From positions 558,001 to 622,000 of the forward strand of contig NC_020294.1 in NCBI RefSeq assembly GCF_000340795.1: a stretch of 64,000 nt of DNA. The letters are read 5' to 3'. A program made the translations under genes and the position numbers. Within the stretch, counting starts at the first letter, position 1. Every line of letters starts with the position of its first letter. This document shows positions 57,286 to 64,000 of this stretch, in pieces. The notes below the pieces were generated by a model, which did no database searches, had not been told where the DNA came from, and saw only the letters and a program-made list of their open reading frames with translations. Origin of the DNA: Candidatus Kinetoplastibacterium desouzaii TCC079E. Lineage in GTDB: Bacteria > Pseudomonadota > Gammaproteobacteria > Burkholderiales > Burkholderiaceae_B.

Positions 57286-58953
57286 TTATCTTAAGGATTT
57301 AAATTTTAATCTTTTAGGAATCACATTTCCATCAATCATCTTCTTATTATGTTCATATTCACTATAATTACCATCAAAAAATACAACTTTTGAATCTCCT
57401 TCAAAAGATATAATATGAGTAGCTACTCTATCTAGAAACCATCTATCGTGACTAATAACTAATACACTACCAGCAAATTCCAACAAAGCATCTTCCAATG
57501 CTCTTAATGTTTCAACATCTAAATCATTTGAAGGCTCATCCAATAATAAAACATTTGAACCATTAATTAAAGTCTTAGCGAGATGTAATCTACCCCTTTC
57601 CCCTCCTGACAAATTACCAACAATCTTGTTTTGATCAGTCCCTTTAAAATTAAATCTACTTAAATAGGCTCTAGAAGACATAAGGAATTTACCAACATTA
57701 ATATGATCTGATCCGTTAGATATAAATTCAAAAACAGTCTTTTCCGAAGATAAAGACTCTCTAGTTTGATCAACATAAGCTATACTAACGGTTTTACCAA
57801 TTACGATGCTACCTTCATCATTCTTTTCCTTACCTACAATCATCCTAAATAATGTAGATTTACCGGCACCATTAGGACCTATTATTCCAACAATAGCTCC
57901 TTGTGGAACATTAAAACTAAGATTATCAATTAATAACCGTTCTCCATATGATTTGCTAACACCTCTAAATTCTATAACTTCATTACCAAGCCTATCTGAC
58001 ACAGGAATAAAAATCTCCTGTGTTTCATTTCTTTTTTGATATTCATAAGAAGATAATTCCTCAAAACGTTTTAATCGTGCTTTGGACTTACTCTGACGAG
58101 CTTTAGATCCTTGTGAAACCCATTCTAACTCTTTCTTTATTGTTCTTTGTCTAGCTGTTTCAGTACTTTCTTCACTAGCCAAACGGATCTCTTTTTGCTT
58201 AAGCCATGAACTATAATTACCTTCCCATGGAATGCCATATCCTCTATCTAACTCTAAAATCCAATCTGCAACATTATCTAAAAAATATCTATCATGGGTA
58301 ACAGCAACTACAGTCCCATTAAATTTATGAAGAAATTGCTCTAACCACTCAACACTTTCAGCATCTAAATGATTAGTAGGTTCATCTAATAGCAACATAT
58401 CAGGCTTAGATAACAACATTCTACATAAAGCAACCCGCCTTTTCTCTCCTCCAGATAAATCACACACCAAAGAATCCCAAGGAGGGATACGTAATGCATC
58501 AGCAGCGATATCGATTTGAATTTCTAAATCATCAAAACCACTAGAAGCAGATGCAGAAATAATAGACTCTAACTCTGCTTGCTTACTAGCCAATTTATCA
58601 AAATCAGCATCTGGCTCTGCATAAGCAGCATAAACTAGCTCTAATTGTTTTTTTGCCAAAAATATATCACCAAGACCATCTTCTATAACTTCTCTAACTG
58701 TCATATTTGAATCAAGAAGTGGCTCCTGTGAAAGATATCCTATCTTAAGTCCTGGCATTGGTACTGCTTCCCCATCTATATCTTTATCAATACCTGCCAT
58801 TATTTTTAATAAAGTAGATTTACCTGAACCATTTAATCCTAATACTCCTATTTTTGCTCCAGGAAAAAATGATAATGATATATCTCGAAGAATATACTTT
58901 TTAGATAAAACTAATTTACTAACTCGATTCATCGTATATACGTATTTAGCCAT
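57286..58953 (-). CDS. ettA: Energy-dependent translational throttle protein EttA (ABC-F)
   Basis: This 555-residue cytoplasmic ABC-F ATPase binds the ribosomal E site and gates elongation by energy state. Two nucleotide domains are visible: Walker [10 protein letters not shown] at 39-47 with [32 protein letters not shown], and GPNGAGKST with [32 protein letters not shown]. The arm/linker region with [20 protein letters not shown] is typical of EttA. No membrane domain is present. Confidence 0.95.
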
Positions 58954-59056
58954 GTATATTACTATTGGTTATATTGAAAACAATTCAAATAAAATATTAA
59001 TATGTATTGTATTTTAAGAATTAATTTCAATTAGAAATTTCTAAAAAATAAATTAT

Positions 59057-59091
59057 AAAATAAAAAGTACATGCTAAACAAAGCATGTACT
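59057..59091 (-). terminator. Terminator of the small basic ORF
   Basis: The stem AGTACATGCT / AGCATGTACT with a 6-base loop is followed on the minus strand by TTTTTATTTTA. It lies 51 bases after the stop of the 42-residue ORF and well before ettA. Confidence 0.82.
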
Positions 59092-59142
59092 AATACAAAA
59101 CAATTTACACTTAAAAGATAAAAATTATATATGCTCTAATAA

Positions 59143-59271
59143 CTAAGCACGTTTAATTTTTTCTAGCATTTTAAAAACGCTTTTTGGTAAATTTACAAAT
59201 AATCTCTTGTAAATCTTCCCAAGACAACGACGCTCTAAAGTATTACGTCTTACACGTTTACGTTCTGCCAT
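59143..59271 (-). CDS. 42-residue very basic protein of unknown function
   Basis: The frame begins with ATG six bases after an AGGGG site and ends TAG. It reads MAERKRVRRNTLERRCLGKI, then YKRLFVNLPKSVFKMLEKIK, then RA. Fifteen of 42 residues are Arg or Lys against three Glu, giving a strong positive charge. The first half uses CGT/CGC-type arginine codons unusual for this AT-rich DNA, and a good terminator follows. This looks like a real gene. The composition suggests RNA or ribosome binding, but I do not recognise the family; it does not match S21, L34 or L36. Confidence 0.65.
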   Translation of the reverse strand: MAERKRVRRNTLERRCLGKIYKRLFVNLPKSVFKMLEKIKRA

Positions 59272-59431
59272 AAAATACCCCTAAAAATAAGAATTAATTG
59301 CAATAACACACATTACATTATATCTAATTTATCATATAAATTATTTATTTAAGAATCATGCTAAATAAATTTGTTATTAATTGATACAATTGAACTAAAA
59401 CAATAATCATGAAAATATAAATGGGAAAAAC

Positions 59432-62400
59432 ATGATTTCTAAAATCAAAATTATTGGTGCAAATCAAAATAATCTTAAAAATATAGATCTTACAATTAAC
59501 ACAAATGAATTTTTAGTTATTACTGGAGTGTCTGGATCTGGTAAAAGTTCTTTAGCAATAGAAACATTATATTCTGAAGGACAGAATAAATATCTAGAAA
59601 CTTTCTCAACATACGCTAGGCAAATTATAAGTTCTATAGACAAACCATCAATAAATAAGATTGAAGGAATATTACCAGCAATATTGATTAACCAAAAAAA
59701 CCCAATAAGGAATCGTCATAGTACTGTTGGCACAATAACAGAAATAAATGATTATTTAAAATTAGTTTTTGCTAATTGTGCAGAACTATACTGTAATAAT
59801 TGTAAATCCATTGTAAAAAAGACTACTCCTGAATCTATTTTTCAAGATATTAAATATAAAACAAAAAAAATAGATAAACCAAGAATCATTATAGCATTTG
59901 ATTTTTTAACATCCACTAGTATAAAAGAAGATATTTTAAAATATTTAGCTAGTAAAGGATATTTAAATATTTATAAAGAAGAGTTAATAAATAAAAATGA
60001 TGAAAATAGCCCTATCTTGTTAAGAATAATACAAGATAGATTAATTTTATCTGATGACAATAAAAATAGATTTTTAGAAGCAGTTACTATGGCTCTAACA
60101 ATGGGAAATGGTTTTGCTAACGTTCAGCTAATCAATGACAACAATATAGATACAAATGTATGGAAGTATAGTAATTTGTTATATTGTACTAACTGTAATA
60201 TAAAATACAGTGAACTTAACACAGGAATCTTTTCTTTTACCTCTCCTCTGGGTGCATGTGACTCATGTAGTGGATTTGGAAATGAAATTATTATAGACAT
60301 GGATAAAGTTATCCCAGATGATAATAAATCAATATTGTCTGGAGCAATAAAGCCGTGGCAAACTGAATATTTTAAAATCTATCAAAAAGAACTAGAAAAA
60401 AATGCGATATTAAATTCGATCTCATTAACAACCCCTTGGAAAGATCTAAAAGATTCTGCAAAAGAGTTGATCATAAATGGAGATTGTCATTGGCCTGGTA
60501 TAAAAGGTTTCTTTCAGAATTTAGAAACTAAATCCTATAAAATGCATATCCGCATATTACTTTCAAAATATAGAAAATATGTAACATGCTCAAAATGTAA
60601 TGGAAGTAGATTTAAGAATAATTCTTTGCTATGGCATATAAATCCAAATAATTCTAATCCAAAAAACAACTACGATGACAATCTAAAACTAGATAATAAA
60701 AAAATTAACATCAAAGATGTCTTAGGAATGCCTCTAAGAGAACTATTAGTTTTATTAAAAAAAATCAAAGACAACTCTATCATTAATAAGAACTATTCTC
60801 CTTTAAAAGAAATTATTAACAGAGTCGAATTTCTAAATAATATTGGATTAGACTATCTAACTTTAGATCGATATAGCAAAACTTTATCTGGAGGTGAACT
60901 ACAAAGAATTAACCTGACTATAGCACTAGGATCATCATTAATAAATACTTTATTTGTAATAGATGAACCATCTAATGGACTACACGATAGTGAAATAAAT
61001 AAAGTAATAGAGTCAATAAAAAAACTACGTGATATGGGTAATTGTGTTCTAGTTATTGAACACAATCATAAAATGATTTTATCATCAGATAGAATCATAG
61101 AAATGGGACCAAAATCTGGATCAGATGGAGGTCAAATAATATTTGATGGTACTCCCCTTCAATTCATCTCAGCTAATACTATAACAAGCAATCACATAAA
61201 ACAAATAAATCAAAAAAGAACTATAAAAGAGTTTGATAATAATAAAATTAGCATTATAGACGGAATGGCTAACAATTTAAAAAAAATAAATTTAGAAATA
61301 CCTATAAATAAATTAATTTCTGTTACTGGCGTTTCTGGTTCAGGTAAAAGCTCTCTAGTTAGAGACATTATTTATAATTCACTAGTATCTAATAAAGAAA
61401 ACCCAGAAAAAAAACTAAAAAATGTCAAAGGAATTAATGGAGCCGAAAAAATAGAAAATGTTTTTTTCTTGGACAATGAAAACCCAATAAAAAGCTATCG
61501 CTCTATAATCGCAAGTTATATAGGAATATATGACAGAATAAGAAATATTTTTGCAAAGAATTCATTGTCAATAGAAAGAAATTACAAACCAAATTTCTTC
61601 AGTCTAAATAGTGGACAAGGTAGATGTCCTGAGTGCAATGGAAAAGGTTTTGAAAAAATAGATATGTTATTTATTCCAGATGTTTATATCAAATGTAAAG
61701 AATGTGATGGTAGATATTTTCGTGATGAAATATTAGATATAAAAGTTGGAGATAAAAATAACAAATACTCTATTGATCAAATTTTAAATCTTAATATACA
61801 AGAAGTAATAAAAGTATTTAGTGATTCAGAAATTTGTAATAGTCTAAAATCTCTTATTGAACTAGGATTAGATTACTTAAGATTAGGAAATCCTATAGCA
61901 ACCATGTCCAATGGAGAAATCAAAAGATTAAAATTAGCTAAATATCTAATAGAACTTAAATCAAAAAAAACCTTTGCTCAAAACTCGCTTATCATAATAG
62001 ACGAACCAACTAGCGGATTACATATAAATGAAATACAACTATTAATTGAGTCATTACAAAACTTAGTAAATCAAGGAAATACCGTAATAGCAGTAGAGCA
62101 TAATCTAGAATTTATTAGTGCGTCTGACTGGATATATGATCTAGGACCTAAAGGAGGAAAAAATGGTGGTAAGATAATAGGATACGGAACTCCAGAAGAT
62201 ATTAAAAAAAATAAAAGCTCATATACTGGGAAGTCATTAAACTTATATTTTGAAAATCCTATTGATTTTATAACTAAAGAACAAAATAACATAAATGAAG
62301 AATTTTCTTTAAAAGATCACAACTCAATAAAAATATTTAATGCATATGAAAACAACTTAAATAACATTGATCTAGAAATACCTTTAAATGAATTCGTTGT

Positions 62401-64000
62401 TATTACTGGAGTATCAGGGTCAGGTAAATCTACTCTTGCCTTCAATATATTATTTCATGAAGGACAACGTAGATATTTAATGACTATGAATAGTTATGCT
62501 AGATCCGTTACAAACACAATAAAAAAAGCAGATGTAAGTAAAATCATCAATTTACCACCAACAGCCTCCATATCTCAACACTTAAATAATGGAAATAATA
62601 AATCTACTGTCGGAACAATTTCAGAAGTACATAACTTTTTAAGATTGTTATACACAAAACTAGGAACTCAATATTGTTATAAATGCAACAATCATATATT
62701 TACAACAAACAAAAATCAAATTGTTGCTAGGATATTTAAAGAACTCAAAGGTCTAAATGCAATATTTATGATGCCAATAAGAGTACAAGAAAAATCTACT
62801 TTGCTAAATATAATTAGAGAACAAAATATACCTTACATAAATATAAAAAATAATTTAATAGCAACAAATAAAATTAATTTTGAAGAAATTAGTTTAGAAA
62901 AAATAATATATATTCCTGTAAAAGAAGAAAAAATAATAGAACACAATGAATTCAAAATACATAGTATTGTAGAAGAAATAGTAACTGATAGCGAAGGATT
63001 TATTAAAATTATAGAAAAACCTATAAACCCACAAAAAATCAAAGAACAGAATATTCTTAAAGAACTGTTTTTCTCAACTAAAAATTCATGTTTAAATTGT
63101 AAAATTAATTTTCCTCCCATAGACTCAAAATTGTTCTCATACAATTCTTCACAAGGATGGTGTGAATATTGCAATGGATCTGGCTTAATAAAAAATTTAA
63201 AAAAAGAGAAACAATATAAATCATCAGATGATTACATTACATGTAATCATTGTCTTGGCAAGAAACTGAATAAAACAACACTATCTATATTATGGGAAAA
63301 TCATAATATAGACGACTTAACATCTATGTCTATAGATGATTTAATATCATTTTTTAATAACATAAAATTAAACTCAAAAGAATTACAAATATCAAACAAT
63401 ATAATAAAAGAAATACTGAATAGATTAACTTTTATGCAAAGGGTTGGAATCGGTTATCTTAACCTCAATAGACCAGAAATAAGTTTATCAGGAGGAGAAT
63501 CACAAAGAGTTCATCTGGCATCGCAAATTGGATCAGAGTCCCAAGGAATATGCTATATATTAGATGAACCTACTATAGGACTTCATCCATATGATAATAA
63601 ATCATTGATTGAGTCTATATTAAAACTAAAAAACAACGGTAATACTGTAATAGTAGTTGAACACGATACAGAAATTATTAGAAATGCATCCCATATAATA
63701 GAAATTGGCCCAGGAGCAGGATCACGTGGTGGAAAAATTGTTGCTCAAGGAAATATAGAAGAATTACTAAGAAATACCAATTCTATAACTGCAAAATATT
63801 TAACAAATATAAAAAGAATACCATCAGAAAAAATAAAATTAGATAAAAATAAAATATTAGAAGTTAAAAATGCTAAATTACATAATTTAGATAATATTAA
63901 TGTACATTTTCAAATGGGTTTGTTAAATGTAGTTACTGGATTATCAGGATCAGGAAAATCAACTCTAGTACAAGATGTTTTATTAAAAAATCTTAAATCT
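59432..64000 (+). CDS. uvrA: Double-length UvrA-like excinuclease subunit (runs off the right edge)
   Basis: One frame is open for 1523 codons to the window edge and holds four ABC half-sites. Walker A motifs (GVSGSGKS or GLSGSGKS) start at residues 33, 633, 993 and 1503. The signatures are LSGGE at 485-489, MSNGE at 825-829 and LSGGE at 1352-1356. Zinc-type CxxC pairs of UvrA are seen in both units (for example CDSCSG, CPECNG, CKECDG and CEYCNG). It is thus two UvrA-like units in tandem. Large UvrA-type proteins of this kind occur in betaproteobacteria, as far as I recall. UvrA scans DNA for bulky lesions. Whether a normal uvrA exists elsewhere is not known. Confidence 0.9.
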   Translation, partial: MISKIKIIGANQNNLKNIDLTINTNEFLVITGVSGSGKSSLAIETLYSEGQNKYLETFSTYARQIISSIDKPSINKIEGILPAILINQKNPIRNRHSTVGTITEINDYLKLVFANCAELYCNNCKSIVKKTTPESIFQDIKYKTKKIDKPRIIIAFDFLTSTSIKEDILKYLASKGYLNIYKEELINKNDENSPILLRIIQDRLILSDDNKNRFLEAVTMALTMGNGFANVQLINDNNIDTNVWKYSNLLYCTNCNIKYSELNTGIFSFTSPLGACDSCSGFGNEIIIDMDKVIPDDNKSILSGAIKPWQTEYFKIYQKELEKNAILNSISLTTPWKDLKDSAKELIINGDCHWPGIKGFFQNLETKSYKMHIRILLSKYRKYVTCSKCNGSRFKNNSLLWHINPNNSNPKNNYDDNLKLDNKKINIKDVLGMPLRELLVLLKKIKDNSIINKNYSPLKEIINRVEFLNNIGLDYLTLDRYSKTLSGGELQRINLTIALGSSLINTLFVIDEPSNGLHDSEINKVIESIKKLRDMGNCVLVIEHNHKMILSSDRIIEMGPKSGSDGGQIIFDGTPLQFISANTITSNHIKQINQKRTIKEFDNNKISIIDGMANNLKKINLEIPINKLISVTGVSGSGKSSLVRDIIYNSLVSNKENPEKKLKNVKGINGAEKIENVFFLDNENPIKSYRSIIASYIGIYDRIRNIFAKNSLSIERNYKPNFFSLNSGQGRCPECNGKGFEKIDMLFIPDVYIKCKECDGRYFRDEILDIKVGDKNNKYSIDQILNLNIQEVIKVFSDSEICNSLKSLIELGLDYLRLGNPIATMSNGEIKRLKLAKYLIELKSKKTFAQNSLIIIDEPTSGLHINEIQLLIESLQNLVNQGNTVIAVEHNLEFISASDWIYDLGPKGGKNGGKIIGYGTPEDIKKNKSSYTGKSLNLYFENPIDFITKEQNNINEEFSLKDHNSIKIFNAYENNLNNIDLEIPLNEFVVITGVSGSGKSTLAFNILFHEGQRRYLMTMNSYARSVTNTIKKADVSKIINLPPTASISQHLNNGNNKSTVGTISEVHNFLRLLYTKLGTQYCYKCNNHIFTTNKNQIVARIFKELKGLNAIFMMPIRVQEKSTLLNIIREQNIPYINIKNNLIATNKINFEEISLEKIIYIPVKEEKIIEHNEFKIHSIVEEIVTDSEGFIKIIEKPINPQKIKEQNILKELFFSTKNSCLNCKINFPPIDSKLFSYNSSQGWCEYCNGSGLIKNLKKEKQYKSSDDYITCNHCLGKKLNKTTLSILWENHNIDDLTSMSIDDLISFFNNIKLNSKELQISNNIIKEILNRLTFMQRVGIGYLNLNRPEISLSGGESQRVHLASQIGSESQGICYILDEPTIGLHPYDNKSLIESILKLKNNGNTVIVVEHDTEIIRNASHIIEIGPGAGSRGGKIVAQGNIEELLRNTNSITAKYLTNIKRIPSEKIKLDKNKILEVKNAKLHNLDNINVHFQMGLLNVVTGLSGSGKSTLVQDVLLKNLKS

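Follow-up and report, generated by a model that had tools for sequence, protein, structure and literature searches.

The window, meaning the whole 64,000-base stretch analysed (bases 558001-622000 of a single-contig genome of 833,125 bases), carries on its minus strand a 42-codon open reading frame that is almost certainly a genuine gene, and the ribosome or some other RNA is the most likely binding partner of the small basic protein it encodes. We infer the step to the ribosome itself, to which we assign a probability of about 0.4. The protein, MAERKRVRRNTLERRCLGKIYKRLFVNLPKSVFKMLEKIKRA, is the translation of the minus-strand frame and contains 7 lysines and 8 arginines, the 15 basic residues of 42 that a preliminary description of this DNA had counted, together with three glutamates and no aspartate. 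Its computed pI is 11.6 and its charge about +11.5 at pH 7. The coordinates given in that description, 59143-59271, were correct, and the strand is minus.

Table 1 Features of the small basic protein gene and its surroundings in the window
Feature	Position	Strand	Details
Small basic protein gene	59143..59271	-	42 codons plus stop; ATG at 59271, stop ends at 59143; based on the ORF listing, homologues with the same start and near-equal length, and purifying selection
Intrinsic terminator	59066..59091	-	10-pair stem, 6-nt loop, T-rich tail just beyond
Ribosome binding site AGGGG	59278..59282	-	6 nt before the ATG; moderate strength; read from the sequence
Possible promoter -10 box TATAAT	59317..59322	-	tentative; no -35 box found
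ettA-type ABC-F gene (presumed)	57286..58953	-	downstream, same strand; context, outside the unit; from the ORF listing
uvrA-type gene (presumed)	59432..64000	+	divergent, open to the end of the window; context

We analyzed selection at 137 loci, some of which are the same genome fetched twice. At the DNA level they yielded 119 distinct gene copies. Across these 119 copies (7021 pairs), differences were mostly synonymous, with a mean pS of 0.63 and a mean pN of 0.13, whereas in the other two reading frames pN (0.27 and 0.28) exceeded pS (0.18 and 0.14). Differences at codon positions 1, 2 and 3 numbered 45,883, 29,657 and 125,740, respectively. The start codon and the length were nearly fixed across homologues, while the flanks diverged. 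The homologous loci were found by protein match, and an open frame alone is therefore not independent evidence; the ORF stands beyond chance because it is conserved. The frame is thus held in relatives and under coding selection, the two points on which the preliminary description had let its claim of an unrecognised yet useful coding gene depend, and that claim is strongly supported by them and by the presence of the gene in all 8 genomes examined from the reduced-genome genus of the window. A conserved RNA in which the frame is incidental is extremely unlikely, as the synonymous excess reverses outside the coding frame and start and length are held between diverging flanks. Rfam gave no match for 58900-59500 at E up to 1, and we found nothing favouring such an RNA.

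With only 42 codons to draw on, codon usage gives weak evidence, supportive rather than decisive. Six of the 8 arginine codons are CGT, compared with 151 of 624 in the 37 window ORFs of at least 200 amino acids (binomial P = 0.0035), which bears out the earlier remark that CGT-type arginine codons differ from the background. The whole-gene codon pattern leans to the translation-gene cluster of the genome, for which 25 ORFs, mostly ribosomal proteins, served as reference. As high a score was reached by 409 of 20,000 simulated back-translations, by 24 of 352 equal-length chunks from the window and by 26 of 91 from the translation cluster.

The gene stands as an autonomous unit that in most cases ends in its own terminator; many relatives also have a conserved promoter in front of it. 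Its own rho-independent terminator, already described, was recovered at 59091-59066 as the sole one in a 501-base region, where 50 shuffles gave a mean of 0.0. Among 118 distinct genes with enough sequence, 74 had a terminator-like hairpin within 160 nt downstream, compared with 0.5 in shuffles of the same bases. Of six loci listed for the window's genus (L001-L004, L007 and L008), only the window's own had the hairpin; the five sister loci L002-L004, L007 and L008 had none. The ribosome binding site, first described as strong, is present, but in the window it is a moderate AGGGG, whereas several sister genomes have AAGGAG.

Upstream, a promoter core of TAGAAT or TAAAAT followed by 3-5 nt and GTTA was found in 59 of 129 regions, compared with 4 occurrences in the remaining sequence of these loci, which amounts to 1.39 million bases over both strands; the pattern was picked after some of the regions had been viewed, so the contrast matters rather than the exact figure. 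All 59 cores were in L006-L030 or L058-L137 (for example L006, L010 and L101), and among the 129 regions the core was absent from the window's genus and from the loci of other families (L036-L057). The TATAAT box at 59317-59322 was not listed by a consensus promoter scan, and the promoter pattern of the relatives does not match there. In many genomes of the home family, the promoter core is constant although the adjoining genes differ.

The setting between ettA and uvrA, put forward earlier as the place to look for the gene, turned out not to be general, as the neighbours vary across loci. The downstream frame is presumably of ettA type, by features of the ABC-F family, and the divergent frame presumably of uvrA type. 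A motif test of neighbours covered 135 of the 137 loci, not made non-redundant, and a base-composition check of the neighbourhood covered 32 chosen loci of the 137. A glycosyltransferase-like gene lay downstream in 51 of the 135 loci.

We examined the distribution of the gene at several taxonomic depths. In a first search of 61 genomes, strong matches (E < 1e-11) were found in all 8 genomes of the window's own genus, whose genomes are of 0.7-0.8 Mb, in 28 of 29 from the rest of the family and in 2 of 24 from the rest of the order. By its size and kinship, the window's genome is probably that of a Kinetoplastibacterium-like symbiont of trypanosomatids. Across the family holding Bordetella and Achromobacter, the gene occurs in 184 of 200 genomes, which represent 41 of the 43 genera, with one match per genome in every carrier but G1106. 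The 16 misses are the whole of genus g55 (9 genomes) and of g12 (2 genomes), plus 5 single genomes whose genera have other carriers. One of the 16, G018, was without a good EF-G match too, which may reflect gaps in its assembly. A scan of named genomes confirmed 228 stretches, the best 80 of the 228 being mostly from Achromobacter and Bordetella. A second family has the gene in 25 of 28 genomes. Order-wide, 46 of 399 genomes matched a 28-position N-terminal motif at E <= 1e-12, the next match being at 2.8e-4. These 46 span seven families (f1, f3, f9, f20, f22, f38 and f43), and the gene is patchy in the six families of Burkholderiales other than the home family. Additional to the 46 is a match in G088 (E 0.003), a genuine copy that a contig end truncates. 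Searches of the class (369 genomes) and the phylum (299) gave a convincing match in the window's own genome only.

Several weaker matches were dropped on inspection: one in G061 (E 8e-4) runs antisense within a coding region of Hpt-like appearance, those in G158 and G238 are missing the rest of the motif, and one in G534 seems to cross another reading frame where a riboflavin synthase gene presumably starts. Inspection covered these and G088; further rows are the second match of G1106 and weak ones such as G142 (E 2.8e-4) and G234. Plasmids and phages gave no match at E up to 0.01 and showed no sign of a mobile origin there. An EF-G tree was built from 27 chosen genomes, of which 14 have the gene and 13 lack it. 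It requires 6 changes of presence, and 12 of 500 shuffles were as low; G018, G132 and G1154 had been excluded from an initial 30, their best matches being poor, paralogous or broken. Presence is clustered on this tree, yet with several losses or transfers. Genus g55 (for example G061) lies within the home family and lacks the gene in all genomes examined, and comparing its ribosomes or rRNA with those of its neighbours could point to the function.

The conservation of the protein was compared with that of ribosomal proteins from the S10-spc region. The small protein of G003 is 86% identical to the window copy, that of G012 90%, that of G008 80% and that of G057 76%; the corresponding medians for the ribosomal proteins were 81%, 82%, 74% and 66% (n = 21, 16, 10 and 21, fewer where the compared stretch fell short; the upper median is given where n is even). 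The small protein thus exceeded the median in all four genomes, with 10-21 proteins compared in each, a level of conservation that is a trait of lineage-specific ribosomal proteins. Ribosomal proteins equal to or above it numbered 8 of 21, 3 of 16, 3 of 10 and 3 of 21, respectively. By partial alignments, the neighbouring UvrA was 49% identical in G003 and 45% in G008, and the neighbouring EttA 75% in the sister genome G003. Identity with the other 7 genomes of the window's genus was 73-88%, lowest in G004, and reached up to 90% in the family.

The conserved part is a near-invariant motif, RRxTLERRCLxKxxKRLF, which follows an arginine-rich N-terminal tail and precedes a short amphipathic helix. 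In 36 diverse members, R6, R8, R9, T11, E13, R14, C16, K19, K22 and R23 were invariant; T11 was no longer so once two more f20-type members had been added. The version in family f20 (L057, L152 and L153) is longer, at 50-53 amino acids, with the same N-terminal motif and a different C-terminal end, which separates the likely core from the variable part. We utilized AlphaFold2 to predict the structure. The model, of moderate confidence (mean pLDDT 69.6, pTM 0.36), has short helices at residues 12-15 and 19-25 and a longer helix at 30-41. Few shuffles of the second helix match its amphipathicity (23 of 5000 as high), and the first is no more amphipathic than its own shuffles (1283 of 5000 as high).

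Known families offered no home for the protein. Pfam and NCBIfam returned nothing for the single protein at E up to 10 and only weak, inconsistent matches (best 0.1) for the 36 members at E up to 1, and Pfam had no match for three f20-type members. A Foldseek search with the model, a query of moderate confidence only, gave no match at E up to 10. Among PHROGs, searched with 4 proteins, phrog_18276 (E 0.041, window protein) and phrog_17906 (E 0.26, L054), both of unknown function, were judged to be chance matches. The matches among PDB sequences were all weak, with a proteasome beta-2 subunit at E 0.49 at best, and we rejected them. The literature does not name the protein in the titles and abstract openings that were covered. 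A table in PMC3098052 counts 80 missing Bordetella genes, and none named in the passages covered could be equated with the small basic protein. Within the libraries searched (Pfam, NCBIfam and the bS21 comparison below), these results agree with the earlier statement that it matches no known small ribosomal protein. Covered by no family model searched, we read it, on its sequence, as undescribed and lineage-specific.

Since its conservation across the family of Bordetella is on a par with that of ribosomal proteins and reduced genomes of about 0.7-0.9 Mb retain it, the protein should have some basic function. We favour an RNA-bound, probably ribosome-bound protein because of its arginine-rich tail and small helical body, its ribosomal-protein-level conservation, its retention in reduced genomes and its translation-like codon pattern. 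The tail and the first helix would dock on structured RNA, for which rRNA would be the best candidate, and the protein may act on the ribosome as an accessory component or associated factor, much as bS22 and bL37 do in Actinobacteria. The preliminary description had suggested a role perhaps in the ribosome; conservation, charge and codon pattern fit that suggestion, while ribosome binding itself remains inferred.

Several observations speak against a ribosomal role. Most of the order is without the gene, as is g55, and this patchy presence indicates that the protein is not a core ribosomal part. The gene lies apart from translation genes, several ribosomal proteins surpass it in conservation, and identity falls to 73% even within the genus. 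The structure model is of moderate confidence, and its first helix is not amphipathic beyond shuffles. As for solved ribosomes, the best PDB match to the uL2 of G012 was 7unr at 460 bits, presumably from Pseudomonas aeruginosa, compared with 525 bits between the window and G012 uL2 in another search. Judged by this best PDB row, probably no ribosome of the family holding Bordetella and Achromobacter has been solved, and such a protein could therefore have escaped notice. That Bordetella, Achromobacter, their relatives and the symbiont-like window genome carry an additional, undescribed ribosomal protein, which other Burkholderiales lost or never had, seems to us rather unlikely. If the protein is on the ribosome, it would add a lineage-specific ribosomal protein in a family for which no solved ribosome came to light.

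A nucleic-acid-binding regulator outside the ribosome, such as an RNA chaperone, an RNA-polymerase-binding peptide or a nucleoid protein, is a possible alternative. Charge, tail and helix are equally compatible with it, and the autonomy of the gene among variable neighbours, its conserved promoter in the home family and its patchiness across the order, often seen with regulators, argue in its favour. Regulators are usually lost from genomes of 0.7-0.8 Mb, however, and this gene is in every examined genome of such a genus, with sequence constraint at the ribosomal-protein level. The invariance of Cys16, Thr11 and Glu13 in the 36 members suggests a specific interface, and with the amphipathic second helix it would suit a partner peptide of one protein complex (a subunit, inhibitor or protease adaptor) that lays its basic face on an acidic surface; no constant neighbour names a partner, and we regard such a role as distinctly improbable. 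Cooperation with the neighbouring uvrA gene in DNA repair is very unlikely. A motif test that can miss some UvrA starts placed a divergent UvrA-like start no more than 1.5 kb upstream of the gene in at least 54 of 135 loci, but gave none for the remaining 81; loci of other families have different neighbours, among them presumed metK and caspase-like genes.

Returning to the ribosomal reading, we compared the protein with named small proteins. It shares with bS22, an AURKAIP1/COX24-type accessory 30S protein of Actinobacteria and Bacteroidetes, a very short, highly basic, lineage-limited and helical character. According to PMC10085706, bS22 was recognised from cryo-EM density, and a basic share of 55-65% is quoted for bS22 and eL41. 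The small protein, in contrast, has 42 residues, 36% of them basic, compared with 33 residues in bS22, and its 36 members lack the COX24-type Pfam domain at E up to 1. The lower basic share counts against a bS22-like part. The accessory 50S protein bL37 of Actinobacteria is likewise short, lineage-specific and initially annotated as hypothetical, and was seen with bS22 in Actinobacterial ribosomes by cryo-EM (PMC10085706), whereas the small protein is without a credible match to any solved chain, the best being the proteasome subunit above. The likeness to bS22 and bL37 would be one of kind, not kinship.

By eye, the protein also resembles bS21 (RpsU), which is small and basic with ERKR and KR runs. 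This kinship was rejected, as hhalign against the genome's own bS21 gave 4 aligned columns at a probability of 0.6%; the bS21 profile PF01165 matched none of the 36 members at E up to 1. A separate bS21 scores above the Pfam cut-off at G000:C1:427521-427679, so the small protein is not the genome's only bS21 candidate. Small DUF1127 proteins are arginine-rich. They are often below 50 amino acids (PMC12501420, abstract), but no DUF1127 Pfam match was found in any of the 36 members.

The divergent uvrA-type frame has no stop in 1523 codons and contains two copies of GVSGSGKSSL and, near its end, a third Walker-A-like motif, GLSGSGKSTL. These three motifs suggest that a double-length UvrA has been kept in a genome of 0.83 Mb, with an N-terminal part only 49% identical to that of G003 (partial alignment).
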